Source of the DNA: Siphonodentalium dalli
Taxonomy: Eukaryota; Mollusca; Scaphopoda; Gadilida; Siphonodentaliidae
Direction: 5' to 3'
DNA: 64,000 nucleotides
NCBI GenBank assembly: GCA_032622095.1
Contig: CP136065.1
Span: 116,973,195-117,037,194, forward strand
Shown one piece after another: positions 8,966-58,610 of the stretch. Position numbers and translations under genes: made by a program. Below the pieces are notes generated by a model that was given only the letters and a program-made list of their open reading frames with translations, was not told where the DNA came from and made no database searches. Each line of letters begins with the position of its first letter. The stretch's first letter is position 1.

Positions 8966-9431
8966 GGAGATACATATTTTCGTCAAAAAATATTATGTCT
9001 TACATATCTTCCATCTGACTGAAATTATGTTTTCATCATTGATCAGATCTAGTGTGAAGTGGCATATACTAGTATGTGTTTGCAAATAAAATTTTCATAA
9101 TCTGCTTCATAATAATGGAGGGAAAGATAGACTTACTGCATCATACCTATGCCATGTAACTGCTAAGCAGCTGTTATAGCTATTTATATAGCATGATTTA
9201 TAGCTCCACTATTTTATGAAATTGGTTATATTCTTAATAAACTGACTTTCAGGTATTAAATGAGGCACAATGTTATTAGTTTAGAATTAATTACATATAC
9301 GGCAGTATCTTCTCAATGTTATCTTGAGCTTCAGTCTGATTGACCCTTTCATAAGTAGGAGGGAGAAACATGAGTGATCATGCTTCTAATATCATAGTGC
9401 TCTACATATAAATATTAATTATACTCATCAG
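8966..9431. other. Intron sequence before the first DDX46 exon
   Basis: AT-rich, with no repeat that I recognise. It ends in ATACTCATCAG, the acceptor of the exon at 9432. Confidence 0.6.
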
Positions 9432-9596
9432 GTGATGAAGATCATGGACAGTATCCGGCCGGACCGACAGACCGTAATGTTTTCTGCTACATTCCCTCGT
9501 CAGATGGAAGCGTTAGCCCGGAGAATTCTCAACAAACCCATTGAAGTTCAGGTTGGAGGGAGAAGTGTTGTCTGTCAGGAAGTTTCACAGCATGTG
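9432..9596 (+). CDS. DDX46: DDX46 exon with helicase motif III (SAT)
   Basis: Encodes 55 residues from [13 protein letters not shown] to QEVSQHV, including SAT of motif III in FSATFPRQ and the [16 protein letters not shown] segment typical of DDX46. The acceptor is CAG at 9429-9431 and the donor GTGAGT starts at 9597. Both boundaries are phase 0. The exon start is a splice boundary, not a translation start. Confidence 0.96.
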
Positions 9597-12500
9597 GTGA
9601 GTATATTGATTGTTTTATTCATTGGTGCACCTGATGCGAAGCATCAAGTAGACATATACGTCACTATATATCCATCATTATTTACAGTGTCTGTTAGAAT
9701 TTCTGGCTGATTGTTGCCTAAAACGATTTTTCCGCTAAAGTGAGCCTTTCATACTGAATTATATGGATTATATCTCTGGCTTTGTAACCACAGGAGGAAA
9801 TGGTCAACTTTTTGCGTTTATCAACTAAAAATTAATTTGTTGATACCAATTTAGCTTTTTCTCCCCTACAAGAAGCTGTTTTTGTTACTAATTATAAAAG
9901 ACTTTCATGGAACGTTTCGCTTCCATACACAACATGTTCCACATTTTAATAAAGCCGCTAAACAATGATATCCCTTCTGAATTTGATCATGATGACCGCA
10001 TGACAAATTATAATCAGATTGCCTTTGGGACAATGAATAAGGATGAACATAGATTACTTTTGGAGAAAATTTATGGGGCTCCTGTGAAACCTATACTGTG
10101 CGATGAAATTGATAAGAACTCAGCCGACCATGTGGTCCGGTATGTGGAGTCTCCTGCTGCCCCGTAATATTGAGTTTTATGTTTATATATTATGATGTCT
10201 ACTGCCAAAGCCTGAAACAGCTCTGTTGGTTAGCGGACACTGGATCAGTTTCTCAGAACCAAAATGTTTCCTGGCTAGTATTAATATATTATATTTAATT
10301 TATTAAAGGAATAGTATTCTGAAAATGTTTAGTACTTTCTTTCAATATACCAATATTATATAATCAAAATGTCCAATTTGCCCAAATAATCTCGTGTTTG
10401 ATCGCTAATATTGTTTTGATAATGGAAAAAAAACAATTCAGAAGAATGCTGAAGATCTCATGTTGTGGACGAAGTCATATGATCAGCAGTCGGTGCAGTC
10501 ACATGATTTAACATGTGACAATCACGTAGCCATAGGGGAATTCCCATTACTATCCAAACAAAGCGACATTGGATAACTAACCAATTTGTTACTGCCATTT
10601 GCTTTTTGCCAGCTTATCTATATATGGCTTTGAGCATATATTATCGACCTCTTTATGTCAATTACGCATAACAATATAGCATTATAAAAGTGTGCGCTTA
10701 CGTCGATATATACATTGGCCGTGGTTCATTTGACCACCCAATTATATAATATAAAACTTTTTGATGGAGGGATAACATATATAAATACATGTCACAAACT
10801 TTCGATATACATGCTTTATATACTGTCATAGCAATTTTATTTGGGGGACTATTAAAATAGCCGGTGTCCGTCCGTGCGTCGCACCGTCCGTCTGTCATAC
10901 TGTGCGTGCATCCTGAAATGGTTTCCAGATGATAACTTTAGTTTCGGTTATTAGATCAAAAGCAAATTTCATAGGTGAGTTTATCAGACCAAAATACAGG
11001 TCAAGTTCGAATATGGGTTGCTCCGCCCATTTTTGCGAGAGTTATGAACTTTTTTTACTTAGAATCTTGTAATTTTCTGGTTTCCGGATGATAACTTCAG
11101 TTTGTGTGATCATATCTGAACCAAATTGTGAGTTTATCAGCCCTATGTACAGGTCATGTTCGAATAGGGGTATGCTCCGCCCATTTTTGTGGCCCTTTTT
11201 CGACTTGTTTTACTTAGAAAATTTCTCACTTTTTCGGTTTCCGGATGATATCTCAAGTTTGGATCCTTTAATTGCAAATACTGTTTTTATGTGGATCAGT
11301 CATATCAAGATACAGGTCAAGTTCGAATTTGAGTTTGATCCGATGATTTTTCTCAGAGTTATTGGCTTTTCGACTTAGAAAATTCAATTTTTCTTGTAAT
11401 TTTCTTCATTTTGTGCCAATTTGAGGTTATATTTTCACTTTAAGAGTTTTTTTAAGATTTGGTTATTTGTATGCATGTCAGTAATGAGACAATGCACAAG
11501 TGTCTTAACCATATAGTATACTTCTATAAAGCCTCCGCTCCAAATGAAGCCACCGTTTCGGGGGACACTGTGGCCGAGCGGCCTTTTATTGAGTCATGGT
11601 GAAGGAAAGTGGTGACACAACATAGAATAGTTGTCATCGTGAATATTTACTAATTACATCAATACATGTAAATACATGTACACAAACTTTCGATACACAT
11701 GCTTTATATACCCATCAAAGTCATAGCAATTTTTCCGCCAAGGAAAGCCCTCACTGAACTATATGGATTATATCTCCGGCCTTGTGTCATCAGGAGGGTT
11801 AAAATTTATTGTCCACCTATCGCCAACTGCCGGGGTCGATCAGCGCTCGGATTAGCCACGCATGAATGCGTCCCGTGTAACTCCCGCGTTCTAACAATGC
11901 AATCTAGTCAGTTTTATTTCCCTCCTCTGTCGATCAGTTGTGTTTTACTAAAGGGAGTATTTATCTGCATTGCGAGTTTATCAACTCAATATTTCTTGTT
12001 AATAACAAACTTGCAATTTATCCGTTGCCTACCGGTCATTAATATTATATAAACGCACAGAAACTTTTCGTTTCATAGTATGCGTTACGTCATTTGTTAA
12101 AAAATCCGTGTTTTTTATCAACTCATTGTCGACTCTTAAATTGGATTCGATTTACAAAATTCGACATAGCTAGCCATTTTGGCAATGACTACAGCCTCAC
12201 ATAATTTACTTGTGGAACACATATATTGCATTATTGTGCAACATATACACGGGAATATTTATAAACTCGTCCATGTGGAACGGTATGTGAAGTCTCCTAA
12301 TTTCGTGCTACACATGTTCTGTTTCCATTTTCACGAAGTCGACTCATCGTTAAGTTCATATCATGTATACTGCTAAAGCATACATGTCACAGCTCTGTTA
12401 GTTCACAGTAAGTTGCCCAGGACAGAAATGTCTCCATTGGCAATAATATACATGACTAAATAAAAAAGATAGTCCAATGACATTTCTTTTGCTTGAACAA

Positions 12501-15500
12501 ACTGCAATGTTGCCGTTTAGGAACCGGAACTCAACTGACATTGGGACATGATTATCATAGACCTTAAGGACATCATTATCGATATCCAACAGGTCGTTAT
12601 CTTTAATTGTGTTTTCACGATTAATACCTACAAATCTAAGCTAGCCAAAAATGTATGATCATGCGGGCTTGTATTTGTTGTTGTTTGAATTTGGATACTT
12701 GCAACATTATCTCAAATGTTACTGCGACTTCAAGGTATTTATTGGAACATCATGACTCGTTTCTTGCGATTCCATATTCTATACCTCATTGTATCGCAAC
12801 AATCGTTAGTAACAAGGCGATTATGTTCATTATAATATGTAAGAGTATTATATGACCTCTGTTCATATAATGCTGTGTCGCTATAATAAATAGTGTCTCA
12901 TTCTTTACATGCATGTACAGTATGACTGACAGAGTCAGGTTGTTACGCATCGTGTGACTGGTTTGATTGGGGCCTAGGATAATATGATACACAAGATTTG
13001 GCGACGAAGGAATTTCATTTCAATTATCGAAAGGAAATCTCCATCAATCATAATCTGTCATTTTCGGTGACACTTGTGTCTGTTTCTCTGCAATCACTCC
13101 ATTCAGCTTGGCTGCATGGAATCCCTGATCCCAGTCTGCAAAGATGCGTCAGCATATTAACCTGACCGTTCAGCTACAGTTTGCTTAACTATCCAATGTT
13201 AGTTCCGTCCGTGGTAAGAAATCTTTGGAGGTGACATCTGGGATGAGGGCCTTGACGAGAGCCCACTGGTCTACTTGTGCCAAGTCATCATATCCAATGT
13301 GAACTCGGTACCACAAAGCATACTGTGTCTCCCATGTCGAGCGCCTTGTTCTTGACAGAACATGGTCGAAGTATTGAACTGATTCATTGGCTAGCCAATG
13401 AATCAATCAATCGAACAATGTTTATACTTATTCTCATTGGGCAGATGATTTCACATCCACAGGTTCTCAATTAAAATTGTCTATATTTGTGAGGTACTGT
13501 ATGTGATCAACGTAACCTAACCAAATAGACGACATCTGACCTCTTATCCTCAGACATTAGTGTTTGTCGACATACTCAATTAATTGGGTACAATAATAAG
13601 GAAATATTACGGTATCAGTGCCTCATCGCCACAATACCATACAAATGGCGTAAGTACTGCAATATGGAAAAAACGACCAGTTTCACCGATACTTCAATAC
13701 TTCCACGCTTTTCAACCGTGAATAGTAAAGGCGGACTAGTACACATATATATTGTCACGTGCCCCAGATGCACTTCCAATAGCCTTTCCAACACTTGGTC
13801 CATCACTTGGCTCTTTGCCTTCTATTTACATATATTGATCCAATCATATGACAAATAGACTTCACTCACATATAAAGCACGGTTACAGGACATACATTTA
13901 TATTGTGCCTGGCCTCTGCCAATATAAATTCCAACAGAGTACAAAACATGGCACTTTTCCTTCTATTGCCGCATATCTAATTGATTATCTGGCGAATAAC
14001 AGACAGGACAGCATTTGTATTGTCCTGCGTATAAAGCGCAGTTACATCAAAAGCCTTTATATTGTGTCCGACCGATGCCAATTTCAAAGAGTCCGAAACA
14101 TGGCTCTTCTCCTTCTATTGCTACATATCCAATGATTATTTGGCAAATAAAATACCTAACAGAATACCACAAATGAAAGCATTTGTATCATCACAAACAT
14201 AAAGCGCCGTTCCGCAAGAAGCCTTTATATTGTGCACGACCACTGCCCAGTAGCAGTGACTGGTGGGGTTCTGCCATCGTTGATTCGGAAAGCCAATCCT
14301 CAAGGGCGAACGCCCCAGCACCTGGGCATTTGGGTGGGGAAGACTCGCCGTGTGCCGCCAACAGCGCACCAGCCGTCCAGACTTCAGTCCTTCCCACGAC
14401 GAAACACAGCAAGAGCACTTATTTGCTCTCGCAATTCAGAAGATGGATGTACTTGCGCACATAATATAATCGTTGGGTTTTTCTCAAATACAATGTCATT
14501 GTGGGATAGACCTAGATATGTTCAGTTGCACTTTCACATTTCCATTATTTAACTGAGATGGGAACGGTTTTCAATATACCTTCAAATAGTTTAATATGGA
14601 ATCAACGATTTCAGTGACCATGAACATTTTGACATGAGGGACAAACTTGTGCAAGTTTAGCACCCACGAATTAAAATATTGCAAGTGCATACGGGTGCGA
14701 GAGCAATTGCTCTTGTCTCCTGGGAAGGACTGCGACTTCTGACTCTTCCCCACGGTCCGTGGCCCACTCCATTACGAGAGTGGGTCTTGCCCCACTGGAA
14801 TCATACTCCTTCGGGATATGTCCAGGCCTGCTCCACCATCGGCAGACTCTCCCAAAGTGTATAAAACATTCTCCTCACCGTAAGAAAGGACACCGCTATG
14901 TTCTTGCACATGCGAAATCGAAACTCATCGTCCTCAATACACGAGAAAAGACCGTATCTTACCTGCGGTTTAACTTATCGCAGGTAAGATCACGTGGCCA
15001 AGAAACTGACGGATTTTTGTCTTATTAACCCTGTTTACAATAACTAACCAAATGATTTGTAAAAAGAAAAATGCCAGTCTTTACCTCGGGCAGGACCAGT
15101 TCGGGTCCCCCTGTTCTGCTCTGCATCAGTAGCGATCAGTGTAGGCAGTGTGCTGCAAAAGTTGATTCGGGAAACCAATCTTCCAGGGCTGAAGCTCCGG
15201 CCACTGAACCTTGGCGGCTGTTCTGGGTGGGGAAGACTCCTTGTCCCGTGCCGCAAATAGCGCACCAGCCAAATTACGAGAGTGGTTCTTGTCCCCATGG
15301 AAGTGTACTCCCTCGGGATACGTCCAGGCCTGCTCCTCCGCCGTCATGGGATTCGAAAGAGACCATCATTTATGCCAGCTTGGTCGGAACCGCCTGCATT
15401 TGGGGGATATGGGGGTGGGGCTTCCTCTGGTCAGATGGCTCCTCCCAATTTTTACCCTCTGCCCTATTGGCCTTGGGGCGTTCCTTATTCTCCCTGGGCA

Positions 15501-18500
15501 CCTCCTAATTGTGCGCCAGGATTTCAAGGGGGTAATTGGGCGGGCAATAGCTCCTTAACTCTTTCATCACTGAATATCATAGTTACATATATCCCACAAC
15601 CCTGAATATCTGGCAATAATATTAAGAAAATAGTATTTGCATGTTATGTGTACTATACACTATAATAGTAATTGATACCTATGGCATTCTATGTATTGGC
15701 GTCTTCGGGAGATATTGAAGTATCAAATGAGTATATTTGTGTGACTGTCAATTCGTCTCGTTAAGTAATTACAGGTATAAAACAGGTGAGAACAGGTAAC
15801 ATTTATGTAAAATCGCCTTTTTTACATCTTGTTTTCTGTTATTGGTGGTGCAATATGAATACTACATCTCTAATATAGTTTTTCCGCCAAGGAGAAGCCC
15901 TTCAACTGAACTATATGGATTATTATCCTCGGCCTTGTGTTATCAGGAGGGTTAAAATTTATTGTCCGTTTATTACCTACTCCGGTCAATCAGCGATCGG
16001 ATTAGCCCACGCATGAATGCGTCCCGTGCAAATCCCGCGCTCTTAACAATTCATCTAGCCAGTTTTATTTGTCTCCTTGGACCTATCAGACGTGGATTTA
16101 ACTAAAGGAAGTATTTCTCTATTGCGAGTTTATCAACTCAATATTTATCGTTGATAACAAACTTGCAATTTATCCGTTGCTTACCCGGTCGTTTAATATT
16201 TTTAAGTACGCGCAGAAACTCTTCGTTTCATAGTATGCGCAACGTAATTTATAAAAATTCCGTGTTTTTATCGACACATTTTATCTCGAAAATTTTGGGA
16301 TTGGAATCGACAAAATCACGTTGAGATCTTCGCCATTGATGGCCATTTTGACAATGACTACAGGCGCACATCGTTTACTTGTTGCAAACCTATATTGCAT
16401 TATTGTGCAACATATACGGTGGCATGAATCGTCCGATTTCGGAGTCCACGTGGTACGGTATGCGAAGTCTCCTAATTTCGTGCTAACTATATTTCATGAA
16501 GCCGACTTCTCGATACGTTCATTTCATGTACACTACCTCATCGTATATGCAACAGCTCTGTTAGTGCGCAGAAAGTTGGCCAGGACAGAAATGTCTCCGT
16601 TGACGATAATTTACATATATTCATAAACAAGATAGAACTTGTCATCCAATGAAATTTCTTTTGCCTCAACTAATTGTAAGTTGAAGTTGAGCGACATTTG
16701 AATTAAGATTATCACAGAACATCATTGTACATATACAACATGTCGTTATAATTAATTGTGCTTACCGATTAATATTTGCAAATCTTAGCTAGCCCGAATG
16801 TATGACGGCTCGTATTTGGATACTTGGAACGTCGCGAACGTTACATCGACTTCAAGATATTTATTTGAAATTTTGACCCTGTTCTTGCGATTCCATTTTC
16901 TTTCCCTCATTGTATCATCGGAACAATCGTTAGAAACAATGAGATTATGCTTGTTACAACATATAGTATTCTATGGCCTGTGTTCAAATAATGCTGTGTC
17001 TCTTGAATAGTCTCGTTCTTTACATGCCTGTCCAGTATTACTGACAGTGTCCGGTTGCTACGAATCGTGCAACTGGTTTGATTGGGGACTAGGATTATCT
17101 GACACAAGATTGGGCACCAAGGATTTTCATTTTAAGTTCCAGGGCTCAAAATACATTTAATTTTACGAGAATCAAATGCTGAATCATGTTAGTCATAAAG
17201 CACTGCAAATTGTAAAGTTTTGTGAGAATCATTACGGGAATCGATTCGGTGATTCTCGTCGAATCTTGAAGCCTGAGTTCCCATTGTCGAATGGCGATCT
17301 CCATCAATTCATACCGGTACTCTGTCGCTATTTCGGCGACAATTGTGTCTGTTTCTTTGCAATCACTCAATGTATTTTGCTGAATGGGCTTCCCTGTTCC
17401 ATGACTACACAGATATGCAAGTGCAGTAGCCTGAACCTTCAGCTATAGTTTGCTTAAATATCCAAGGATACTTCCGTCCATGGTCAGAACTCTTTGCAGA
17501 TATTTTGGATGAGAGCCTTTGGCTGGCCTACTTGTGGCAAGTCACCATACCCGTGTGACCTAGCATGGTCGCAGTGTTGAAATGATTCATTGGCTAGCCA
17601 GTGTCTCAATAAATTTTCAGTCAATCAATGTTTATACTTTTGATGATTTTGATGTTTCACATTTCCATGTGTTCACTGTAACAAATAGACAACATCTGAA
17701 CTGTTATCCTCAGACATTAGTGTTTTCGATACATTCAAATTATGAATTAACATGATACAAAATGGTGAGCTTAAAAACATGTATGGCGAGCCATAATTGT
17801 TCCATACTAGTACAAGGGTGTCAGTGCCTCAAAGGCTCAATGACATACGAACTGACTATATCAATATGGCGTGCATCAATTTTCACTGATACCGACATAC
17901 TTCTGCGCTTTCAATCCGTGAATAGTCAAGGTGAACTACTATGCATTTATATTGTCATGTGCCCCGATGCACTGCCAATAGCCTTTCCAACAGAGTCCAT
18001 CACTTGGCTCTCTACCTTCTATTTCCACTTATAGAAAAGATCAAATGTCAAATAGCCTTCACTCACGTATTAAGCACAGTTACAGGCAATGCATTTATAT
18101 TGCGCAGGGCTGCTGCCACTATAATTTCCATCAGAGACCAACACATGGCTCTTTTCCTTCTATTGCCTCATATCCAATTGATTATCGGGCAAATAACAGT
18201 AAGGACAGCATTTGTATTGTCACACATATAAAGTGCAGTTACATGAACAGCGTTTATATTTATATTGCGCACGACCACTGCAGGCCTGCGTATTGGAGGC
18301 ACACGACGGTTCGGTTCACATGACGGTTGCGAAATCTAGGTTGCGCCAAGGTTGTGTGAGGTTCTCGCGATACTGATTATAACTGTTTGTGTAACTTATG
18401 GGTACCTGAGGACAACCAGACAGCAGACACATACTAGTATGTTATGGCTTGCGCATATTTTGCATTCCGCAGACCTGCCAGTGCCAATTTCAGAAGAGTC

Positions 18501-21500
18501 CAAAACATATCTCTTCTCCTTCTATTAATAAATATCCATATGATTATCTGGTGAATAGAATACCTAAATGACTAACACAAATGACAGCTTTTGTATCATA
18601 ACACATATACAGCGCCGTTCCGCAAGAAGCCTCTATATCGTGTATGAACACTGCCCAGTACCAGTGACTGGCGGGGTGCTACTATCGTTGATTCGGAAAA
18701 CCAATCTTCATGGGCGCACGCCTCAGCACCTGAGCCTTAGGGTGGGGAAGACTCGTCATGTGCAGCTGACAGCGCACCAGCCAACCAGCCTTCAGATGAC
18801 AATGCAGCTCAAGCTCTCATTTTCTCTCACAATCCAGAAGACGGATGTAATTGCATCCATAATATAATCGTTCGTTGTGTTTCTCTCAAATTAAATGTCT
18901 TTGTGGGATAGACCTTGATACATGCATGTTTCGTTGCACTTTCACATTCCCATACTTTAACTGCGATGGGACCGGTTTTTAAATATACCTCCAATAGTTT
19001 AATATTGAATCAACGGTTACTGTAACCATGCACATTTTGTCAAGAGGGAGAGGGCAACATTTAATGCTCGTGAATTAGAGAATTACAAGTGCATACGGGT
19101 GCGAGTACAATTGCTCCTGTCATCTGGGAAGGACTGAGACTTCTGACTCTTCCCCACGGTCCATGGCCCACTCCATTACGGGAGTGGGTCTTGTCCCCCT
19201 GGAATCATTCTCCCTCGGGATATGCCCAGGCCTGCTCTACCTTCGGAGGACTTTCCGTACGCGTATAAAACATTCTCCTCACCGTAAGCAAGGGCACCGC
19301 GAAAAATGTTCTTGCACAGGAGAAATCGGTTCTCATCGTCCTCTTCGCCGAGAAGTGACAGTATTTTACCTGCAGTTTAATTTCTAGCAGGTAAGACCAC
19401 GTGGCCACATAATGAACGGAATTTACCTTATTAACATTATTTTGCATTAACTAACAAAATGTTTTGTGTATTACGCTTGCTAATAACTAACAGAATGTCT
19501 TGTCTTGCTTATAGTCAACGAGATTCGACTTTGATGGCCACACACCGTGCGGGTTGCTCAAAAAATAAACGCGGCAATATGCGGTATTGTCATTGTTGGA
19601 TGAGGGCCCGTTGGTCCATGGTTAAACAATTTGAGCAAACGTACCAGTCTTACCTCGGGCAGGACCAGTTCGGCCCCCCCTGGTCCTGCATCAGCAGACT
19701 TTGGGTGGCAGCGTGCAGTTCTCGGAGATTCGGGCAACCAATCCTCCAGAACACCCGCACACTCGCCTTTGGGTGGGGAAGTCTCGATGTCCGGTGCGCT
19801 CAATGCGCTCCAGCCAAAAGGCCTTCTGACGCTTCCCCATGGCGCTGTGGCCCACCCCATTACGAGGGTCGGTCTTGTCCCCCTGGAAACGTCATCCCAC
19901 GTGATACGTCCAGGCCTGCTCCTCTGCCGTCATGGGATCCTAGTGGTATGTCATCGATGTTTATTCCAGCTTGTCTGGACCACCTGCATTCGGTGGGGGG
20001 GGTTTTCTCTGGTCAAATGGATCCTTCTAATTTTATCTTTTTGCTGACCTTCTGGCATTGGGGTGGGCCAAAGCACCTTAACTTCAACTGCAAGAGCATT
20101 TATACCTCGTTCGAGCCATTCCCCGAGTGGGCTTCCCTATAGTACCTTATCTCAACCTGATGCAGGGTGTTCTGTTGCTGTGGTCGATACTGACATGCTT
20201 CCTATACTTCTCATGGCGTCTGATGGCTTTGACGACGATGGGCAATAATCACGGGATTCTGTCGTTCCTAAGGAACTCGCTTTGCGTATGGAAACGACAT
20301 GGGTCGATCTCTTGTACAAAACTTCATCACAGGATATGTGTCAACTGACTTACACAAACTTGCACAACTGTACCAGTCTTTACCTCGGGATGAACCAGTT
20401 CGAGTCCCATGGTCCTGCACCAGCAGTCCGTGGCAGGCGGGGTGCCGTTCTCGGAGATTCGGGCAACCAATCCTCCAGGACAATCGCACCCGAGCCTTTG
20501 GAGGCTGTTCTGTGTGGGGACGACTCGATGTCGCATACTGTCCATAGCGCTTTCTATTTTGGAAGATATCTACAGAAATCACACTCATCACATGAAAACG
20601 AGAAGAAGATGCAGTGAAGTCAGCAGCAGAAGAAGAAGTCTCTACTTGCTCGGTTTCTAGCTGGCGCGTATGGTGTGGCACTGCCTGGGACGTTTCTTCC
20701 TAAAACCAGGGGGGGGCAGGTACAAGCTTGAGCAATACTGGAATCTGAATTTATGAGCTCTTTCACATAACATATCAAAGCTGATTCATGACTAAATCAC
20801 ATTTACATGACATCTGTTTTGGAAGAGTACATTCCCGTCAAACTAGAATATTAAATTTATTGCTCGTTGCCTCCTCCTGGGCTTGCATTCTAATCCATAT
20901 AGTTCAGTTGAAGGGCTTCTCCTTGGCGGAAGGGAAGCCCGAAACTGAACTATCATAGATCCCTCCCATGGCGGTGCCATTCCCAACCCCGCGACTCGCA
21001 AATCTTATTATTAAAAGTCGGAAATAAAACTGGCTAGATGAATTGTTAAGAGCGCGGGATTTGCACGGGACGCATTCATGCGTGGGCTAATCCGATCGCT
21101 GATTGACCGGAGTAGGTAATAAACGGACAATAAATTTTAACCCTCCTGATAACACAAGGCCGAGGATAATAATCCATATAGTTCAGTTTCGGGCATCCCT
21201 TGAGGAAAAACTAATTTTAATTTTAAAAATTATATTTTACGTTCATGTTCTACTAAACCTCCGGGGAATCTGTAGTCCATTTACCTGTGATTTACTGTGC
21301 CATGACAACAGGTAAAATATACATGTGTGCATTTCAAAGTTCACAAATATTGGCTCAGTCTGTTTGAAAAGCCATACAATTTCGAATGTTTTATTGCATT
21401 TTCAGTTTAGTTAGGGACTTACAATAACCTTTTATATTATGCAAGTACATGTGCTTGGCAAATACATTGGACAATGTTGTTATTGCAGGTAAGATGGACA

Positions 21501-24500
21501 CATCTGACAAAAGTCCTTGGTATATATATATATATACCACACATTTTTTTCAAGATTAGGTTGGATATCAACAATAAAAAAATCACAGATGATATTCCTC
21601 CATGCAGTGTTCGCGCTGGACCGAAAAAAACTTTAGCCAAAAGTTTAGCCAAATGAAAATTTTATTAGCCAAATGAAAAAAACTTTAGCCAAATGTTTTT
21701 TAGCCAAATTAAAAAAAACTATGGCCAAATTAAATAATCGTTTTCTGGTCGGTTCACAATTAATGACTAAAACGTCAAATCTAACAGACACAGGTAAAAT
21801 ACACAATAATTTAACTAATTTTTATGAACTAGAAATAATTTTATATATATCATTTATTAAAAAAATATTAATCTTTATGGGGGGTGGGGGGGGGGGGGGG
21901 GGGGGGTAACCAGGGATTGTCCTTCTTAATGTCATTAAATTTTTGTTTTATATCAATATCTTTTTTTAAATCATTAAATATTAATTATTCTTGCGAAAAT
22001 ATTTAAGTGACATCTGGAAACTAATAACTTAATATTGTTACGACATTATCAAATTGCAATCTGTCATAAAAGCATGCATATTATTTTGAATGTATCGGTA
22101 TTGACGACAAATATCTGTCGTGATTCACATTTGGCTGATTAAGCTATTGTCTTACACTTGGTGCTCATAAACCTTGGCCGTCATAAATACAATGTCATCA
22201 TACACATGCATTGTGCAGGAGTCCCGTGAGTGACCAGACAGACAATGCGGGATTAGCGGATTAAATGTAAAATAATGATTTTTTTGCTGTTTCGTGCAGA
22301 GTGACGGGTTTCCCTTTGTACTGTCCGCGATCGGGTTTCCCTTTATACAGTCGGCGATATATTCCCACTTACGATGTTTTCGGACTAGATCGTTCACATC
22401 ACAGAATTGAAAACCCACTTGCCAAAAATTCATGCTTTCAGTCTCCATTTGGGGTCAAAAAAAGTTTAGCCAAAAGTTTAGCCAAATGAAATTTTTATTA
22501 GCCAAATTCGAAAAAGATTAGCCATTGGCTAATTTGGCTACCGACAGCGCGAACACTGCCTCCATGTAATCAATTGGTCAGACAAATTATCATCTATAAT
22601 TATAAATACATATACATACCTTTACAGGTGTGGTGTATAACAAAATTATCCAATGAAGCATTATCAATGAAGGTATTCCTTATCAACTGAGGAAACGTAT
22701 ATAAACTCAACAAATAGGTCTTTATATATGAACAAGTTGTGTATTCAATTATGTGCCACATATCCTTGTAATCACTGTCACATTCTCCACTATAGAGTGA
22801 TTACTTATTTTACTTCCATGCTCTGAATCCAGGTCAGACAGTTCATTATCCCTAGAGTTAGAGTAATCAATTTAGTCTCCACTGTGATTTTTATCATCAG
22901 AGACAAGCTGTTTTCTGGATACTGGATATTTACTATGTGCACACAATATATCAAATACACAAACATTAAAATTCTCAAAGAATTCATCCTCGGAAAATTC
23001 GTCACCATCTGGATATCACCATCACTATCACCGGATATGTTTATAAATTTAGTTTGCTTGGTCTATGCCTGTTTGGAAAGGAATAAAACTCATTTCTATA
23101 ACATTTTTGAGATAAAACCAAGTTTATATATTTCCTGTCTATGCTCCAGAATATCCCCCACATAAGATAAACTTTAAATGCCATATGTTTGTGATTTAAA
23201 AGCAATTTAAACATAGGATGCCTGTGTTTGGCATAATTGCCCGCTACAGCGGGCTGCAGTGATGAAGCGTAATTTTTAATTTGCCCGCTACAGCGGGCTG
23301 CCGTGATGAAAGAGTTAAATCCATATGCGAGTGAATTTATTCCTCGCTCGAGCCATTCACAGAGTAGGCCTCCCTCCAGTAACGTAACCCAGCCTGATGC
23401 AGGATGTTCTGTGACTGGCGTCGATCCTGTCATACTTTCACTCCATCCCATGGCGTCGGAAGGCTTTGTCGACGATGAGCTGGAATCTTGGGCCGACAGT
23501 GGGGCGATTAGTGATAGCTAGACAGTGTGCTGCAAAAGTTGATTCGGGTAACCAATCTTCCCGGGCCACTGCACCTTGGGTCCCCACTGTCGGTCGAGGA
23601 TTCTGTCGTTCCTCGGAAACGCGCTTTTGTGAATGAAGATAAGATGAAAAGATAAGCTTTACGGTTTTCTTCTCTTCCTTAGTCTCTTGACTAAGGAGGG
23701 GAGGAGGACTGACATACCTTCTATGCGCCTAATGGATTTGTCAACGATGAGCTAGATCTTGGGCCAGCTCTTTTGTGAATGAAATCGACCGAGGTGATTT
23801 CTTGTACGACCTTCATCACAGGATACAGGTCAAATCTTGTTTAAATTAAATGAACACAAAATTAACACCAACCATTCCAGTCTTTAACTCCGTCATGCTC
23901 GGTTCTGGCCCCATGGTCTTGCTGCAGCAGTCCGGACCAGTGGCAGGTAGGATGCTTACATCTCTGATTTGGGAAACCAATCTTCAAGGGCGAAAGCCCC
24001 AGCATCAGTGCCTTTGGAGGCTGTTCTGGATGGGTAGGACTCGCTGCCGGGTACCGATATTTAGCTAACAATTTAACAATTTTGAAAGGTATATATACAG
24101 CCGTCAATCTCATCACATGACAACGAGAAGAGGATGACGCGAAGAAATAAGAAGATGTCTCTACTTGCTCGGTTTCTCGCTAGCACGACTGCTATGGCAC
24201 TACCTGGGATGTTTCTTCCAAAACAAGGGGGGAGGTACAAGTTTGAGCAATGCCGGAATCATAAACATATGAGCTCTTTCACAACACATTATAGCTGATT
24301 CATGAATAAATCACATTTACATGAAATCGGTTTTGGAAGAGTACATTTCCATCAAATTTGGATATTAAATTTATTGCTCGTGCCTCCTCCTGGGCTTGCA
24401 TTCTAATCCATATAGTTCAGTGAGGGCTCTCCTTGGCGGAAAAATATACTTTTTAGAATTATTATTAATTTTTCCTTAAGGGAAGCCCGAACTGAACTAT

Positions 24501-27500
24501 CAAAGATCCTCCCATGGTGGTGCCATTCCCAACCCCGCGACTCGCAAATCTTATGATTGAGTTGGAAAATAAAACTGACTAGATTGCATTGTTAGAACGC
24601 GGGAGTTACACGGGACACATTCATGCGTGGCTAATCCGAACGCTGATCACCCCCAGTAGTAGGCGATAGGCGGACAATAAATTTTAACCCTCCTGATGAC
24701 ACAAGGCCGGAGATATAATCCATATAGTTCAGTTCGGGCTTCCCTTAAGGAAAAATTTATTATAATTCTAAAAATTATATTTCCGGTTTATTAAGTGCTG
24801 TTTATTCGCACCTGTCTGGAATACGCTTGACATGGAACGCTCTTTATTCAGTCATGGTGAAGGAAAATGGGGACTAGAATAGTTGTCATCGTGAATATTT
24901 ACTAATTACATCACTATACTCCCCACTTTAACTGCAATGTTATGTATTCATAACCATGCATGACTTGTAAAATTAAACGCTCTTTATTTGGTATATGCAT
25001 TCGCTTTTTGGCGATAGGTTCGATTTGATATGCTCACGGCTGGACGCTCCATTCTTTATATTCTTTACGGGAGTTGACGTTTTTCTTAGGATGGATTCTC
25101 ATCCGTGGTTGTTTTGTTTAATGTGGGTGTTGCTTCTATTCTGAGTTGTCGTTGGTAGCTGCTGTTGGGGCCAAGTATATTCACATTGTGCTCAAAGCAT
25201 CTTTTTTCATAGTGGATGGAACAAATTATGGACCATTTCGTTGGCTACCACTTCAATAGTTTCTGATTTTGTACAATGGGCTTCCCCACAAAATCCCACC
25301 AAATGTCATGTAAATGTACATCGTTTGGAAATGAATGTAGAATAATACCAAATTGAGAGTCACTATACTGCATTTATTTGGCATTGTCAGGAATGAATGA
25401 ACGTTGTGAATATACAGGATACTCAGGGCACATATATGGAAAATTAAAGCAACATCGTGAACACGCCCCCAAATTGTTGTAAATACTCTAGTCCAAAAAT
25501 TGAGGTATTGAAATAAATATATAGTGCTATATTTTTGTCAAAACAATAACTTGCCAAACAGTACTTTATGACAAATCACCATGTGAAGAACACTCACTGG
25601 GCGATAATTAATCGCGTATACACAATGTTATTTACATGTGATCGCAGTTATTCCATTATACTCACACGCGCATGTCAATTTTGCTTTTGATATCGCCACT
25701 CAGATGACGTCATATAGGTAGACACAATTAACTCAGACTCCGATTCCGTGTTTTTAATTAGTCTACTCATATGACGTCATATGAGGATTTGCGACGGAGA
25801 TAGCCAGACAACCGGTGGAGGTATTATCTGTTTATTTATCGGCTTATTTATTACGCGATAGTTATGGGACTTGGATCTTTGTGTTCATATTAGGGGTGGC
25901 TTTCCGATAGTGTTTTGTTGTATTCATCAGGATAACAATCCTTTAAATAGTATTAATTTTGTAATACGACAGTATTGATAACGTTCTTCAACATCACATA
26001 TACGTTCCCTTGCGATTGGACCCGCATCATGGCAATCCAGTCCAATGACATAGTACATGATGAATATTGATTATATGTCATTGATTAAGCATTAATAATC
26101 AATAATCTAAGCCAGGAGGTAAGAACCTGTGGGCTAATTTTTAGCATGATAGTCCACATTAGGGACCATGTCAAATTACAAGTGGAAATTCCGCCAGTCA
26201 GAGAACGTAGTTTTATCTCCGCTCTCCTGCGCTCTCCACTCAAAATCTCCGCTCTCCGGTAAGGGAAATAGTGTAAACACATTGGAGTTTTTGTTACGTT
26301 CATCGGAGTTCTAGCAAGTTTCTGGTGGAGTTTCCGGCAGAATTTTTATTACATTATAGCAGAGTTTCGTGGGGCCAGCATAGTTTTTGTTACGTTCACC
26401 GAATTACTGCAGAGTTTCCATCAAAGTCCGCTGGATTTGAAGCGCTCACATCTAAGTTTTCCATCTAAAACTCTGTTTTACTAGGAAACACACCACATTT
26501 TTTATTATCAGTCATATATGACAAAGAAGAATTAATTCAGTCATGCTTGCACTGCAGCTTATCTACGATTTACCCCTCTGTTAACATTTTGTTTGCATTG
26601 TTTTATAATATTAGGTATTGTTTGATTAATTGGCAGTAATAATTTGTGATCGATGCACGTTCTGTTTCGATTTCGATTCCGTGCTTTATATATACACATA
26701 AACTGTGTCATTTCACTTCACTTCATCGCATTGAAGTACACTTTATTCGCATCACAGTACACTTTATTTATCACTGATTGTCATAGTATCTAAAATTCTA
26801 GCAAGTTCAGTTCACAATCTGCATATTCATCTAGTTATCATTCAATTATCACTAATTGTTAGCTCAACTTACTTTGTAAGTTTGAGCTATTGCCATTGTT
26901 CGGCATCCGTGTTTGCGTGTGTCCGTCAACAATTTCCTTTGGCGCGGGCTACAGGTCGTACCTTTGTTCTGATCTTTATGAAATGTGTCATGAATGTATA
27001 TATATACCCATAGTTACACTTCAAATGGCTGGGTTGGTATATTAAATAGTGTCTCCTACCGGAACACAAATATACAGTCTTCCTATATATTCTGAAGAAA
27101 ACTGGGGGGGGGGGGTTTGGTTGCTATGGTTCTGGTGACAGGCATGATTGGGAAGGGGCAAAACCTATTGGGATAATTTGGCAACACATGTCATGAGTTT
27201 CTATGTTATCAGTCCTTCCCAGGAGACAGTAGCGTTTTTGCTTTCTCACCGGTATGTGCTGGCAATTTTCAATTCACGGGTGCTACTATTTGCGCTCTTT
27301 CCTCTTGTTCAAATTCTTATTGTGGCTATTGCATAGTTGATTCAATTATTTAAATAATAATTTGAGTCTATTTGTATTTTGAGATTATGAAGGCTATTTT
27401 GCTCCTTTCCCATCTTGGTTCAGTTATGTGCATGGAAAAGGATGCTTGGCGGTAGTACTATCCCACAATTATATGCTGCGAACAATCCACGTTATAATCT

Positions 27501-30500
27501 TATTACAGGTGCAATTACACCCTCTTATGAGCAGCGGGAGGTATTAGGTGCTCTCTCTCTGTTTTCCTCATGGGAGGGACTGCTTCATACGCGTACCAAC
27601 AGCTTTGACAGATTTTGTCTCAGTAACTTTAATTGTGTATTAAATGAACATCATTATTAAACTGTCCTCGGTTTGTGTGCATGAACTCTTTGTCTCGCAT
27701 TGAATAAACTTATTATTCATTATCCCAGACCACACAAATATTGATTCTTGGTACCTGGTCCCTCCAGTGACAAGTCCCACCGAAAACTTAATGCTGTAGC
27801 ATGTTAGATTCCACATATATACTAGTATGACATGGCATTTCCTGTGGCATTGCTTTTTGCCGCAGCCGGTTTTGGGAACTGTCTACACGTGATTCCACCC
27901 ACGGTACAGTAAGACATTATCTGAGACCTCTTGGATGTTCGTCTGAATGAGGATCCCAATGAGAAATAACAGAAATGGTATTCCAAAGGGAGATAAGACA
28001 TTATTTATGACAAGTAACCATATTCAATGTAACATTGGTTCACACAAGCATGCTGTGTCTTCAATGCAGAGCACCAAGATTCATGAAGGGCATGGTATGA
28101 GTGTTGAAGGTATTCATTGACTAGCCAGTGTCAGCATGAATTTCAATTATATCAATGTATGTACATGTTTACAAACTTTCACAATAATACCACCCGGCTT
28201 CTCACTTCTGCACTTTTCTTCTGTCAATAATAGAGCATTAGAAGGGTAATGGTAGCATTTATATTGTCACATGCTCAAAGATTCACTGCCAAGAGACTTT
28301 CCAAATAACAGTCCAGAATTTGGCCCCTATCCTTCTATTGTTATTTTTTCGTCCCATTCTTGTAAATAGACTTCACACAAGAAACAAATGGAAAGCATTT
28401 ATATTGTCAAGTACCCCATGACCACTGCCAATAGCCTTTCCGAAAAGAGTCCAAACATGGCTCTTTTTCTATTGCCCCAATCTAAATACGATTGTCCGGC
28501 AAATTCAAAAGGCTATTCGTTTGCGCTGTCCGGACTGACCAGCGACATGAACAATTTATCAGCGGGCAGAGATCCACCCCTGTGAGAGAGTGGATCCAGA
28601 CCCCATGGCACCATATGCCCAATCACAGGGACAGCCCATGTTGCTAACTCTTGAATGTTTCGGTATAAGCAGTATTTGTCCTCTTCTCCTTAAAATTGCC
28701 TGTACAGGACCACTTAGGTAGGGGGGGAGGTTCCGTTCTATCATATGGCTTCTTCCGTTTATAACAACCTGGCTATTAAATTCCCCACGACAGTACACCA
28801 TTAGGATGCATGTACGTTGCTGAAAAATATTGAATTGTTTCTTGAACCCTTTACCCAACAGAAGGGCCCTGTGCCAATGCATTCTCTTATATATGCGAGT
28901 CGACCATAGGTCGCCTCGCATATATAAGAGAATGCATTGGCTTAACACATTAAAAATTATAAAATTGTTAAAGAATGTAAGAAAAAATGGTAAAAAGTGT
29001 TAAAAAAAGATTTTTTTTAGGCCAATGCATTCTCTTATATATGCGAGGCGACCTATGGTCGACTCGCATATATAAGAGAATGCATTGGCACAGGGCATAA
29101 CTGTAGCCATCACAATGTGGTCAATGAGCCGGTTCCAATGATATCCATATTTGTATGGTTTTATTGAGACAGACCCAAGATAATTTAGGCTGTTGCAGCT
29201 TTATTTGGCCGTTTTTGGCCGGTTTGTTGGGTAAAGGGTTAAGCAGACATATTTGGAAAGGGTCTTCCTCTAGATCAATGCATGTATCAAACTAACCTAA
29301 CAATAAAACACCTAGGTCATTCTGCTGCATGTCTGGAGACAGAGACATCATTCTGTCCTGTACCAAAGCCTGATTATGACGTAGGGTGAACAGAACAGTG
29401 CACATGTAGGGTTTAATCATATGACTACATTGTACCATACATTAGTCATGATTTCGGTTTTGGACTATTCGGATATTTCATGAAGGTTGTTTTTACAATC
29501 ATTTTGCACAATCAAAATTATTAATTTATAACCATTTGAAGGTATAGGCCGCTATTGATATATCACGTCGTTCAATCGATATGACCTGTGCGCCTCAGCT
29601 TCTCGACATCAGTTCACCGGGGAAGTGGACTGGTAGTTTACTTTCTCGGTGACTGCACTGGTCCCCTATGATCTTCAGTCATAAGAACCATCAATCAATT
29701 GTGCTTATGGCTGTTAATCATGCTATCTGAGTGGTATTGTATATATATTTAGTGATACGTTGGATCTTGACGGGGATCCCTGCTCAGGCTTCGATCATTG
29801 GGGTGAAGGGCGAGGCTTTAGTAGGGCTTTCTAGCATGATCTAATCGGGTCATTTTATATATATGTATATGATGTGTATCATGGGGTTTCTGAATGATAT
29901 CTTATGATACTTACCACAGAGACATGTGATAACAGTTCTAAGAAGGATGACAGGACCAGTTCACGTTCCCCCGATCATGTTTCGGCTGTAAGATCAATCA
30001 GTGGGGATGTGTCCAGTGGAGCAGACGAGGTACTTGGGACCCCTAGGATGTTGTGTCCCCCTGCCGGTACTAGTGGTTCTGGGCGCTAAAGCTGCCAAAA
30101 TTCGCATGCGCACAATTTGACACTGGCCAGTGGCCTTCTGCAGCTTGGCACAGGGCAGTGACCCTACATATAGAGGTAGCAAGTCAGATCCCCCTGGCCA
30201 CACATTTTTGATGCCCATTAATGTGCAGGTCGTTCTGTCACTGAGGCGGAGAGTGGGTTAGTCTCTTTGCACCCCAGGGTGTCTGAGACCTTAGAACAAA
30301 GTGAAGAAAGAAGATAAGACGTATCTTCTTCCATTATACTTGCACGGTTGGCTCGCAAACATGAATTGGATGGCACTACCTGGGATGTGCCTTCAAAAAC
30401 AATGGGGGGAGATCAGTTTGAACAATGTAAGACTCTGAATATGAGTTATTTTCATGGGCTTGCATTTTAATCCATATAGTTCGGTATGAAAGGCTCACTT

Positions 30501-33500
30501 TAGCGGAAAAATATTATTTTTATAAGTATAATTAATTTTTCCTTAAAGGCACGGTTGGCCTTAATTGTCGAAAATATTCATATTTATTCCAAACACCGTA
30601 AACAGAAAAACATTAAAACGCATACAGTTTCGTTCATATATACCATGACCATCGCGTAAACAGCATGCTATCATAAAGACTTACTATATTTTACATAAGC
30701 AAGAGCCTGATTGTGTTACAGAAGACAGCACAGTGTCACTGGCTAATCACACACAAATGATATAAACGCTCTTTATTAGTTCCATATCAGGAATTCAACA
30801 ACAAAGAACGCTCTTTATGTTTACCATCATAATATAAACAAACACCAGAAAAGTAACTTTTTATGCTTGTGTTTACATAACAATGGTCAAACAAATGACA
30901 ATAACATACTGTTTATGCAATATTTCTTATTTGTATACGGACAAAGTCTGTCTACATTTTGATGTTCTTTCTGTTTGTGGCGGTTTTTGATGGGTGGAAG
31001 TATTTTCACAGGATACCCACCGCCAAGGCCAACCGTACCTTTAAAGAGAGCCTGAATACTGAGCTATCATATGTCCCTCCCATGGCGATGCCATTCCTAA
31101 CCCACAACTCGCCAATCTCCTGATTTACTCGGAAATAAAACTGAGGAATCCAATCGAGTACAGCCGGTTATATTGGGAGCGTTCATGCGTGACTAATCCG
31201 TGCACAGGTAGATTGTGGGCGAGCAAAAGGTTAACCCTTTCCTCCTGTTGTTACAAAGCCAGAGATAAAATCCATATAGTTCAGTATTCAGGCTCTCTTT
31301 AAGGAAATATTAAATATAGTTATAAAAATAATATATCATTATACAGGGTTTCCGTTAGGGGTTCGGGGAATGGTACCCCTATTGCCACTGGGGGTATCTC
31401 AGTCCATAAAAACTGCCAATATCTACTAGTATTTAGGTAACTTTGCGACAAAACGTCAAATTAAATTCGCAGGTAAAATAAGTGTACTGACAAACTGTTT
31501 GTGCTGCCACCAACATTGGTAGAGGAAACCGTTAATGTTAAAATTATCACTACATTCATAACAACATGTTATTCAATGAAATATTCCTGAACATTATTCA
31601 GTGGCTAACATCTGGACCTCATCTACATAATCAAGAGTGTTATTTGAGAATAGAGTCACAATGTACATATTGTATGCAGACAGAATCAACCATGTGGTTT
31701 TTAGCAATGTCTGCTTTGATATCTTTCAGAATACTGCAATAATTGCTCATGTGTTTAGCCCTGAAAAGTATTTGTTCAAATGGTTCTCTAGTGGTCGGCG
31801 TTAATGGGCAAATAAAAGTATCTTCGTTTATTACGCCCTGTTGGTTTTATTTAGTGGCAGATATACACATGTGGATCGGGTAGGAAAATATATTGGAGAG
31901 GAAATTTGGATGAGGGGAAAGGGACCTTAAAAGGGGCACGCTGCCCCCATAGTAGAAACCCTGTATTATAATTAAACATGCAAATGATTTTGTAAATAGC
32001 TTGAGAGTAGTTGCTTTCTGAGAATCTTGTACTAGCCTGATAACAAGGACCAAAAGCAGTCGAGGCCTGATACACTCTCATGGATTAAATAATGATTCCA
32101 ATTATTCTTTTATAACATTTTGAGTATCTCAGTAATCCCCGACTGACATTGAACATTCTTCTTCTGACCGCCCTAGGAATTTGCCATGCTATTATTCCAG
32201 TCAGGATGCAGGTGAAGAGGCAGAACATTTATTCTGTTCATTAACATAGTTTTCACTTTATCATTTGATGCTTCCCAATTACATGTAGCTTGAAAAGATT
32301 ATTTTGGTTACGTTCGAAATATCTCTAATCAGCTACATACTCAAGGGTCCGGCGGAGAGAGCAAATAAAATAAACATGCAGACCCAAGCAACGTGCAGGG
32401 TGAAAATTCCGATAGAATTAATAAATGATTATTTGGAACACAAGAGAATGCCATTGGAATTGGCCTTGTTTTAAAATGGTATAAACTCATCAATTATCGG
32501 TCAAGCCAGACAGAATAATCTTCATAATAGAAATATATATTTCTGAATGAGGTAGTAACTGAAAAATCTGGGGTTATTTTGGGGTTCGATGATTTGCTGG
32601 AATAATAGGGTACTCTTAATTCTGTTATAGAATTCAGATCCATAGTGTTTCTGCATGATGTTTAGAATTCATTCTACATTATGGTTTTGATCAGGCGATC
32701 ATCCCAGTCACCCTGGTCTGCTTAGTTACATGAACATTGAACAAATATCATGACTTGTTTTTCAGGTTGTTATTGAAGAAGACCAGAAATTCCTTAAACT
32801 ACTAGAACTGCTAGGCATTTATCACGAGGAAGGCAGTGTACTTGTGTTCGTTGATAAGCAGGAAAATGCTGACGATCTGATGAAGGATCTACTCAAACGA
32901 ACTTATCCTTGTCTGTCGCTGCACGGTGGACAGGACCAGTACGACCGAGACAGTACGATTATGGACTTCAAAGCTGCAAATGTTAAACTATTGGTGTGTA
33001 CATTATTGTTGATTGTGATCCATCTCATCTTTATATCATGTAAAATTTTCTGATATATCATTTCAGTAATTCTTGATAGGATTATCTCCACTAGGAGCTC
33101 TTCAAAATTTAAAGATGACCATTATTATATAATTGTTGTGCGATGGACTCGAAAACGGCCAAGCCGATTTCCATGAAACTTGGTATGTGGGGGTACTTTC
33201 GGCCGGGGAGTGGCATGGGCCTATTAATTTGCCTGTGCGACGTGACCTTGACATTGAAATCGGGTCATTTCAAGGTCGAACACCCGAGTATCGCGGGATT
33301 TCGATGAAAATTAGTGACTGGGGATACTTTCGTATGGGGAGTGTCGTAAGCCTATTCGTTTGCCCGTGCGACGTGACCTTGACCTAGAAATCGGGTCAAT
33401 TCAAATTCAAATCGCGAATTTTGATGGGATTTCGACGAAATTTTATACGTAGGGTTACTTTTGTCCACTGGGTGTTTTGGACGGGTCGAGTCATGACCCT

Positions 33501-36500
33501 GACCTTGACCTTCAAAATGATCAATTCGAGGTCAAATCGGGTAAAACCGGATGGATTTCGACGGGTACTTTTGTCGGGTACTTTTGTCCGGGCTGTGTTT
33601 TGGACGGGTCAAATCATGATCCCATCTGACCTTGACCTTCAAAATGGACAATTCAAGGTCAATTCGCCGAAAAGCAGTGGGGAAATTGGGTAAAACCGGA
33701 CCTTGACCTTCAAAATGATCAATTCGAGGTCAAATCGGGTAAAACCAAATGGATTTCGACGGGTACTTTTGTCGGGTACTTTTGTCCGGGCAGTGTTTTG
33801 GACGGGTCAAATGGAAACAGTGTTTTGGACGGTTCAAATAGTGACCCCACCTGACCTTGACCTTCAAAATGGACAATTCAAGGTCAAATCGCGCAATTCG
33901 CCGAAAAGCAGAGGGGAAACAGCCCGGACGAAGTCGGGTCCACCTGCTAGTATATATATAGAGATTCCAGATGCGGTACATGCAAAAACATAGTTACTGG
34001 TACTCAACTCAAGTTTAAAAATGGGACAGTAGTTCAACCCAATGCGGATATGGACTGCAAATCACGGAACTTAATCTATATTATTATATGTTCTGGATGC
34101 CATGAGTTTTATGTGGGACAGACGGGCAAATATATATTAATGTTAGAATTATCCATTTTATATTCAGGTCATATAAACAAAACATCATCTTTCTTTGTGG
34201 TCTCTGGGTGAAACAATATGCACATGTCTGTGATATCTGTGGCTTCTACATTATAAATAATTAAATAGATATATCCGCTCTTAGCTCAGAGTTCAGTGAA
34301 ATTTGTTTACCCTCTCTTTACATGTGCCTGTCTATGCTGGTTGCAAGTAATGTTTTCGATGTGTCTGGATCTTTGTTTCTTCGTTTGTCTGTACTTGCAC
34401 ACTTCTGGTGACGTCGTTCCGGAAGTACAGAATGTAAAGAATACACATGCGCTAATTTAATATGAAATTATTGCACAGATTACATATTTAAAATCCATAT
34501 ATATGCTTAATTTACATATTTATTGGGGGGAATTTTTGTCATAAATCTTTCATATTAGAACAATTTTGAGTGTTTGCTTCTTGAAAATTAGTAAAGATGT
34601 CATGATATCACGAAGCGCATCATGACATCACAACCTCCTTCACATGCAAAACTACAGACAGGACTGCGTCGATGTCCAGACAGCTGAGACTCGTATTACT
34701 CGGGCATGCTGAATGACCTGTGAAGTATTTCTGGAAACTTTCTTTGAAGTTCAAAACATTTAAGAAAAATGCAGCTGAAATACGCATATAAATCATGTCC
34801 AGTTACACACTCTGGAATGGGGTTTTATTGAAAACTAAATTTTACTGAGGAAATATGTATGAGGAAACATGGATTAATAAAATGCCTTATTAATTATACC
34901 CCCTTTTTAGCTCAACTTTACTTTGTAAAGTTTGAGCTATTGCCATGGCTTGGTATCTGTCGTCCGTGTGTGTGTGTGCGTGATGCGTCAACGATTTCCT
35001 TTAGCACGGGCTACAGTTCGTACCTTTGGTCCGATTATTATGAAATTTGTAATGGATGTTAATATTGACATGTAGATGGGAATGAGTCGGGCAAAAAACA
35101 TGGCCGCCAGCAGCCATCTTGGATTTTACTCTTTGTATGACTAAATCCTTTAGCACGGGCTACAGTTCGTACCTTTAGTCTGATCATCATGAAATTTGTA
35201 ATGGCTGTTGAAATTAGAATGTAGATGGGAACGAGTCATTTTGGGGTCATTCGGACAAAAAATATGACCACCAGCAGCCATCTTTGATTTCAAAATTTAA
35301 TCCATTAGCACAGGCCACAGGTCGTACTGTTCGTCTGATCATCATTAAATTTGTCATGGATGTTAATATTGACATGTAGATGGGAACGAGTAATTTTGGG
35401 GTCATTCGGCCAAAAAATATGGCCGCCAGCAGCCATCTTGGATTTTACTCTTTGTATGACTAAATTCTTTAGCACAGGCTACAGGTCGTACCTTTAGTCT
35501 GACCATCATAAAATTTGTCATGGATGTTAACAATGACATGTAGATGGGAACGAGTCATTTTGGGGTCATTCGGCCGAAAAACATGGCCGCCAGCAGCCAT
35601 CTTGGATTTTACTCTTTGTATGACTAAATTCTTTAGCACAGGCTACAGGTCGTACCTTTAGTCTGACCATCATAAAATTTGTCATGGATGTTAACAATGA
35701 CATGTAGATGGGAACGAGTCATTTTGGGGTCATTCGGCCGAAAAACATGGCCGCCAGCAGCCATCTTGGATTTTACTCTTTGTATGACTAAATCATTTAG
35801 CACGCGCTACAGGTCGTACTTTTAGTCTGATTATCATAAAATTTGTCATGAATGTTAATAATGACATGTAGATGGGAACGAGTCATTTTGGGGTCATTCG
35901 GCCGAAAAACATGGCCGCCAGCAGCCATCTTGGATTTTACTCTTTGTATGACTAAATTCTTTAGCACAGGCTACAGGTCGTACCTTTAGTCTGACCATCA
36001 TAAAATTTGTCATGGATGTTAACAATGACATGTAGATGGGAACGAGTCATTTTGGGGTCATTCGGCCGAAAAACATGGCCGCCAGCAGCCATCTTGGATT
36101 TTACTCTTTGTATGACTAAATCATTTAGCACGCGCTACAGGTCGTACTTTTAGTCTGATTATCATAAAATTTGTCATGAATGTTAATAATGACATGTAGA
36201 TGGGAACGAGTCATTTTGGGGTCATTCGGCCAAAAACATGGCCACCAGAAGCCATCTTGGATTTTACTCTTTGTATGACTAAATCATTTAGAACAGGCTA
36301 CAGGTCGTACCTTTAGTGTGATCATCATAAATTTTTTTATGGCTGTTGAAATTGTAATGTAGATGTGAACGAGTCATTTTGGGGTCATTCGGATGAAAAA
36401 CATGGCCGCTGGTGGCCATCTTTGATTTCAAAATTCAATCCATTAGCACGGGTTACAGGTCGTACTGTTCGTCTGATCATCATGAAATTTGTCATGGATG

Positions 36501-57514: not shown

Positions 57515-58610
57515 TGTGTCCCATCAACAATTTACTTCGGCACACCCTACAGGCCACTTCCATCACCAAAATTTGTATGGATCTTCGGGGGTGACCTCTG
57601 GATGGGTGCCATAAAGTTTTCCCGCAATTCGTCAAAAAACATAGCTGCCAGCAGCCATCTTTGATTTCAATTTTGAATCCCATCAGCAGACCCTGCATTC
57701 CACATTTATTGGAGAAATGTTTCGAAAATTGACATTTATCTCTGGATGGGAGCTATTGAATTGAATGATTTTGATGAAAATACGTGGCTGCAAGCAGCCA
57801 TCTTGGATTTTGCCTGACTAAATCCTTCAGCATACAGGCCACATCTCTCATACGATCACCAAACTTCATATGGATCTTCGGGTTGACCTCCAGATGGGTG
57901 CTATCAATTTGTTTAGCTCAACTTTTTTTTGTAAAGTTTGAGCTATTGCCATGGTTTGGTATCCGTCGTGCATGAGTGCGTGATTTGTCAACAATTTCCT
58001 TTAGCATGGGCTACAGGTCGTACCTTTGGTCAGATCATTATGAAATTGTCATGGGCGTTGACATGTAGATGGGAACGAGTCATTTTGGGGTCATTTGGCA
58101 AAAAAACATGGCTGCCAGTGGCTATCTTGGATTTCAAAATTCAATCCATTAGCACGGGCTACAGGCCGGAGTGTTCGTCTGATCATCATGAAATTTGTCG
58201 TGGAAGTTAATATTGACATGTAGATGGGACGTGTAATTTTGGGGTCGGTCGGCCAAAAAACATGGCCGCCAGCAGCCATCTTGGATTTCAAAATTCTATC
58301 CATTAGCAGACTACAGGCCGGATTGTTCGTCTGATCATCATGAAATTTGTCGTGGAAGTTAATATTGACATTTTGGCGTGATTCGGCCATAAAACATGGC
58401 TGCCGGTAGCCATCTTGGATTTTACTCTTTGTATGACTAAATCCTTTGACACCATGCAGCTACAGGTCGTATCTTTGGTCGGATCATCATTAAATTTGTC
58501 ATGGATGTTAACATTGACATTTAAATGGGAACAAGTCATTTTGGGCTCATTCGGCAAAAAAAAGCATGGCTTCCAGCGGTGATCTTGGATTTCACTAATT
58601 TTCTGTCTTA
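57515..58610 (+). repeat. Truncated copies of the 164-bp array family
   Basis: 57515-57905 is the older variant (CATCAACAATTTACTTCGGC, GCCAGCAGCCATCTTTGATT). At 57914 a younger copy starts with AGCTCAACTTTTTTTTGTAA and runs for about four units to 58610. There is no right terminus. Confidence 0.8.

Follow-up and report, generated by a model that had tools for sequence, protein, structure and literature searches.

An alternating stack of DNA elements and DIRS-type elements, very probably non-autonomous DIRS1-like, within one DDX46 intron

How do three pairs of DIRS-like ends come to lie one inside the other in a single intron, and did the elements that they bound insert into copies of their own family, in line with the original prediction? 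We addressed this question in a window of 64,000 nucleotides (the whole stretch of DNA analysed, to which all coordinates refer, features being given on the plus strand) and in the genome that was searched with it (2.23 Gb, 9 contigs). All of the nest falls within a single DDX46 intron, as had been proposed, because it is flanked by an exon ending at about 9596 (9390..9596, counted from the frame start to the donor, the exon start not being fixed), whose best match in phmmer was to DDX46 chains (E 5.3e-25), and by the next helicase exon, within frame 32754-33050. Self-comparison of 9.5-31.6 kb recovered the three predicted inverted pairs, 9727/31335 (element E3), 11729/24783 (E1) and 15881/21238 (E2), strictly nested, and genome copies bore out that these are true element ends; for E1 and E2 the pair coordinates agree to a few bases with the ends derived from empty sites. 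Direct nesting, on the other hand, did not hold, since a different transposon separates E1 and E2 each from the next DIRS-type element. We consider it highly probable that the locus is an alternating stack that runs, from the outside inwards, through E3 (DIRS-type), pB-A (a DNA element), E1 (DIRS-type), pB-B (a TTAA DNA element) and E2 (DIRS-type), the E elements being DIRS1-like but non-autonomous.

The inner separation is visible in L020, an uninterrupted E1 relative of 5.3 kb (91-95% by piece), which joins window position 15561 to 23315 through one TTAA, so that 15559..23314 is a separate element, pB-B, lying in E1. The inverted ends of pB-B (CTCTTTCATCAC / GTGATGAAAGAG) are flanked by TTAA at 15555-15558 and 23315-23318, and TTAA stands at both sides of its copies L030, L031 and L033; we take this TTAA duplication with inverted ends as a piggyBac mark. 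About 15559-15878, 21238-21604 and 22559-23314 are pB-B's own DNA. Within it lies an element at 21605..22558 with inverted ends CAGTGTTCGCGCTG and an 8-base duplication CCTCCATG, which by its ends only we presume to belong to the hAT superfamily; it is missing from all four pB-B copies fetched (L030-L033), and CCTCCATG is single in L030. The same four copies, of 40 listed, also lack E2 and thus offer empty targets for this innermost and youngest DIRS-type element (15879..21237, core TTT at 15879-15881 and 21235-21237), whose two ITRs are identical.

One layer further out, pB-A (10307..25942; own DNA about 10307-11729 and 24783-25942) is the host repeat of E1 and is itself inserted in E3, as seen from the E3 relative L017, where about position 10298 is joined to 25942 and the pB-A site is empty, the junction being AT-rich and aligned with gaps. 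Its flanks at 10303-10306 and 25943-25946 are consistent with a TTAA duplication, which is present in the window and in L029 and is not clean in L027. pB-A is common in the genome (2216 first-look candidates, 40 scored), and the three copies fetched of 44 rows listed (L027-L029) are all without E1: L027 and L029 run continuously across the E1 site, a clean empty site, and L028 lacks E1 but has 32 unmatched bases there. E1 occupies 11730..24782, as delimited by its ITR pair, by L020 and by the empty target, with its own DNA at about 11730-15558 and 23315-24782 and its core TTT at 11730-11732 and 24780-24782.

The divergence between the two ITRs of an element falls inwards, from 0.099 in E3 (65 columns) through 0.055 in E1 (170 columns) to 0 in E2 (165 columns), which supports the predicted order of insertion, probably E3, then E1, then E2. 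Matches of E2 type reached 98-100% across the left ITR (40 scored of 1322 candidates), and E2 is a member of a young, high-copy family. Among the matches listed, those of E1 type went up to 96% and those of E3 type to 84% at best across the longest stretch, so that the E3 family looks older. In L034 and L035 the ITRs are free of substitutions (148 and 147 columns), so that some families have moved recently. This order also bears on the alternative that the inner pieces came in as composites, E2 being inside pB-B when this jumped into E1, or E1 inside pB-A when this jumped into E3, in which case nesting alone would not give the order of events. Such an arrival is compatible with the geometry, and pB-B is a DNA element able to move with cargo. 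However, full matches to the E2/pB-B and E1/pB-A junctions were found solely here among the 40 scored for each (of 1091 and 990 candidates), the fetched host copies carry no cargo, and both the identity of the E2 ITRs and the inward fall of the three divergences speak against it, which makes composite arrival distinctly unlikely.

Stepwise insertion of each E element into an alternating host also has to be weighed against direct self-insertion, in which each DIRS-type element would have entered a copy of its own family. The geometric nesting of the three pairs had suggested this, and such a habit is described for DIRS-1 of Dictyostelium, which, in the part of PMC5633606 that cites Cappello 1984, preferentially targets its own copies; the nested YR elements of that system resemble ours, and its self-targeting contradicts the earlier view that such events have rarely been described. 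Elsewhere in the present genome one element has indeed entered a relative directly: in L026 a cousin whose junction triplet is TAT lies within an E2-type copy, at a TAT of the target; junction and target are both TAT, so the triplet follows the element. At this locus, in contrast with the favoured target of DIRS-1 as given there, the two inner elements lie in unrelated, non-DIRS repeats, and the host copies fetched from elsewhere lack E2 (4/4) and E1 (3/3), so that self-insertion is very improbable and is contradicted here by the empty host copies. What stands of the original interpretation is that the ends are DIRS-like, that the families are related and that the order was E3, E1, E2; self-insertion at this locus does not stand. 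The nest may instead reflect a repeat-rich intron in which the short TTT target abounds, rather than a preference for own copies.

What marks the alternating E elements as DIRS1-like is the structure of their ends. ITRs are present in E1, E2, E3 and their complete relatives. Inside the right ITR of each E element stands the complement of its own left end followed by the complement of its own right end; this ICR, which is complementary to both ends around a 3-base circular junction (the centre being missing in the window copy of E2), also complements the part of the right end beyond the ITR, where a right extension of about 25 bases passes the ITR match. The ICR of E1 (24404..24500) is complementary to 11729-11770 and 24724-24782, and that of E3 (30468..31067, in the two pieces 30468-30548 and 31041-31067 split by a 494-bp element) to 9726-9770 and portions of 31276-31334. 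In the ICR of E2 (20891..20953) the AT-rich centre that the window copy has lost is present in L001, L003 and L005. The diagnostic variants that had been said to pair the ends unambiguously do so for E3 (one per strand, 9732 with 30492) and for E2 (one per strand, 15884 with 20913). For E1 the variant is exact at the left only (11735) and its partner at 24424 is off by one base. On the right, the variants of all three elements stand within the ICR, 0.3-0.8 kb in from the end, and not at the end itself.

The empty sites show how these ends were joined to the target. Without the insert, the E2 target is ATATAG-TTT-TACG (with TACA in place of TACG in L030) and the E1 target AGCAA-TTT-CCGG. With the insert, the left junction is target-TTT-TTCCGCC and the right junction TTATA-TTT-target, and an intact ICR, such as that of L001, reads TTATA-TTT-TTCCGCC. 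At both empty sites the target TTT is identical to the circle-junction triplet and there is no target duplication. This joining through a single TTT without target duplication is the signature of tyrosine-recombinase insertion, and both sites agree with the integration model as outlined in PMC3266345, in which element and target share a single triplet and no duplication arises. The end triplets were tallied by eye in 16 elements (E1, E2, E3, L001, L002, L003, L005, L016, L017, L020, L022, L024, L025, L034, L035 and L036): TTT stood at the left end of 15 and at the right end of 12, the exceptions being L016 on the left and E3, L017, L020 and L024 on the right. Movement by a DDE transposase, with the E elements as DNA transposons with long inverted repeats, is hardly credible and was rejected on end structure, because the ICRs spell joined ends, the right extension lies outside the ITR and two empty sites have no target duplication, even though they have inverted repeats and yielded no RT of their own, the gene side of this argument being Pfam on chosen frames only.

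For the DIRS1-like E elements, we propose that proteins acting in trans would copy the element RNA, that the ICR would bridge both ends into a circle, and that a tyrosine recombinase would then cross the TTT of the circle with the TTT of the target. As no coding partner was found, the enzyme that moves them is one that we infer.

E3, the outermost and oldest DIRS-type element (9727..31335), was delimited by its ITR pair and by L017, which joins its pieces; its own DNA is at about 9727-10302, 25943-25995, 27000-28842, 29248-30546 and 31041-31335, the remainder being later insertions. Besides pB-A, it holds three smaller ones. The first, of about 1 kb (25996..26999), is absent from L017 and holds one unit of a window repeat. 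This unit recurs at 34.9-44.4 kb and 57.9-58.5 kb of the window, where the units at 34904-44363 and 57913-58508 are related to a stretch of 63-150 bp at 26856-26997, and also in L018 and L022. The second, a palindromic miniature element of about 0.4 kb (28843..29247), is likewise absent from L017 and has copies in L014 (88%) and L026 (97%); it lies in the body of E3 here and, at L026:382-786, in an E2-type copy, where it sits at the TTAA of the ICR. The third is the 494-bp element in the E3 ICR (30547..31040), with inverted ends AGGCACGGTTGGCCTT / AAGGCCAACCGTACCT and a TTAA duplication (30543-30546 and 31041-31044); the ICRs of L016 and L017 are without it. The E3 ICR was hit at the same position as that of L026, by a different element. 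In L016:2930-7063, a Copia-type insertion (RVT_2 frame) lies within an E3-type element.

The families to which these elements belong are abundant. The 17-base ITR core AATCCATATAGTTCAGT has 3034 exact matches in the genome (1535 plus 1499) and its reversed control 0, which excludes chance and suggests roughly a thousand elements, given up to three core sites per element. In the first 100 listed positions, which lie on C1, the distance from one site of a pair to the other tends, as judged by eye, to be about 5 kb. Five E2-type copies compared with the window copy had 637 differences at 24,346 compared sites (2.6%), pieces below 88% identity being dropped.

DIRS-type genes that could move them were found neither in the window nor in the 29 related loci, several of which were covered in part, for RT, RNase H, methyltransferase or tyrosine recombinase. 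Pfam gave no match in 10 tested of the 166 listed window frames, and when ten proteins encoded at six YR-element loci served as tblastn queries, neither the window stretch nor the 29 related loci, some of them partial, yielded anything below E 0.079. The only RT among the related loci, a 396-codon frame in L016, was rejected as a coding partner, as its RVT_2 match makes it a Copia insertion. In E2 the longest open stretch (235 codons) exceeds that of every one of 200 local shuffles, and in 4 of 11 windows substitutions are spread unevenly over the codon positions (p <0.05, uncorrected), so that E2 may contain a degenerate coding relic. A small 5' frame common to E3 (9907-10164), E1 (12170-12373) and E2 (16255-16623), with stops or frameshifts in several relatives, is perhaps the relic of an ORF. 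Judged from their ends and frames, the E elements would work like DIRS1, and we treat them as non-autonomous relatives and not as coding members.

A full-length coding member, for which the original prediction had hoped, was not found through the methyltransferase and recombinase searches and the loci read. The genome does contain elements that combine RT and recombinase domains with a Dam-type methyltransferase. With the methyltransferase model, 150 of 240 candidates were scored and 25 matches obtained, of which six loci were fetched: L010-L014 carry split direct repeats and L015 has a body like L012, cut by satellite. The six fall into three families, since L010/L011 on the one hand and L012/L013/L015 on the other are close copies. 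With a recombinase model 150 of 1445 candidates were scored, and with a single recombinase protein 121 of 1502. Twenty stretches downstream of recombinase genes, all on the plus strand and picked for variety from 122 rows, included 15 with the expected direct-repeat pair and none with E-type ends; six pairs among them are close copies, so that the number of independent families is below 20. E-type ends and a recombinase-type gene occurred together neither in these stretches nor in 10 further loci with an E3 end, each read over 2.1 kb only, and since those loci were cut at that length and L004, L018, L021 and L023 may be partial elements, genes outside could be missed. A low-copy coding partner is compatible with this sampling.

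How, then, do the E elements compare with known systems? With the DIRS1-like group (DIRS-1, and LgDIRS and AcaDIRS of molluscs), as characterised in the relevant sections of PMC3266345, they share ITRs, an ICR with a 3-base circular junction, which is there a mark of the group, the right extension, the lack of target duplication and a length of about 5 kb. They differ in that RT, methyltransferase and recombinase genes were not found (GAG and RNase H were not tested alone), and in number, with about a thousand copies against the 39 and 44 sequences given for two molluscs in PMC3266345, by methods that are not comparable. PAT-like retrotransposons belong to the same order and coding ones are common in this genome, but they have split direct repeats where the E elements have ITRs plus an ICR, and PAT-like proteins had no meaningful similarity to the E elements. 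TOC elements of green algae are described as non-autonomous relatives of YR retroelements without full coding capacity. They are grouped in PMC3266345, as far as its classification goes, with the split-direct-repeat PAT elements, in contrast to the ITR-plus-ICR ends seen here. Literature searches by wording returned nothing on point for non-autonomous DIRS elements, which is not a claim of absence from print.

The empty-site pairs document directly how recombination took place in DIRS-type insertions; the replication model is described in the pertinent text of PMC5633606 as not fully proven, with its last step supported only indirectly. A large population that keeps ITRs and an ICR, with the enzyme gene not found, makes these two features candidate cis-requirements, and it raises the question of which enzyme moves them, given that split direct repeats, and not ITRs plus an ICR, bound most of the coding recombinase retroelements that were examined. 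It is conceivable, if rather unlikely, that the ITR-plus-ICR population has no coding partner of its own type left and is moved in trans by PAT-like machinery, both end architectures being interchangeable substrates.

The coding loci themselves (L010-L014 and L037-L056) represent many YR retroelement families with split direct repeats in one genome. Three examined YR families have a Dam-type methyltransferase, and several copies retain long stop-free frames. L009 encodes a protein, presumably Crypton-like, that matches DUF3504 and Phage_integrase and has many similar-scoring matches.
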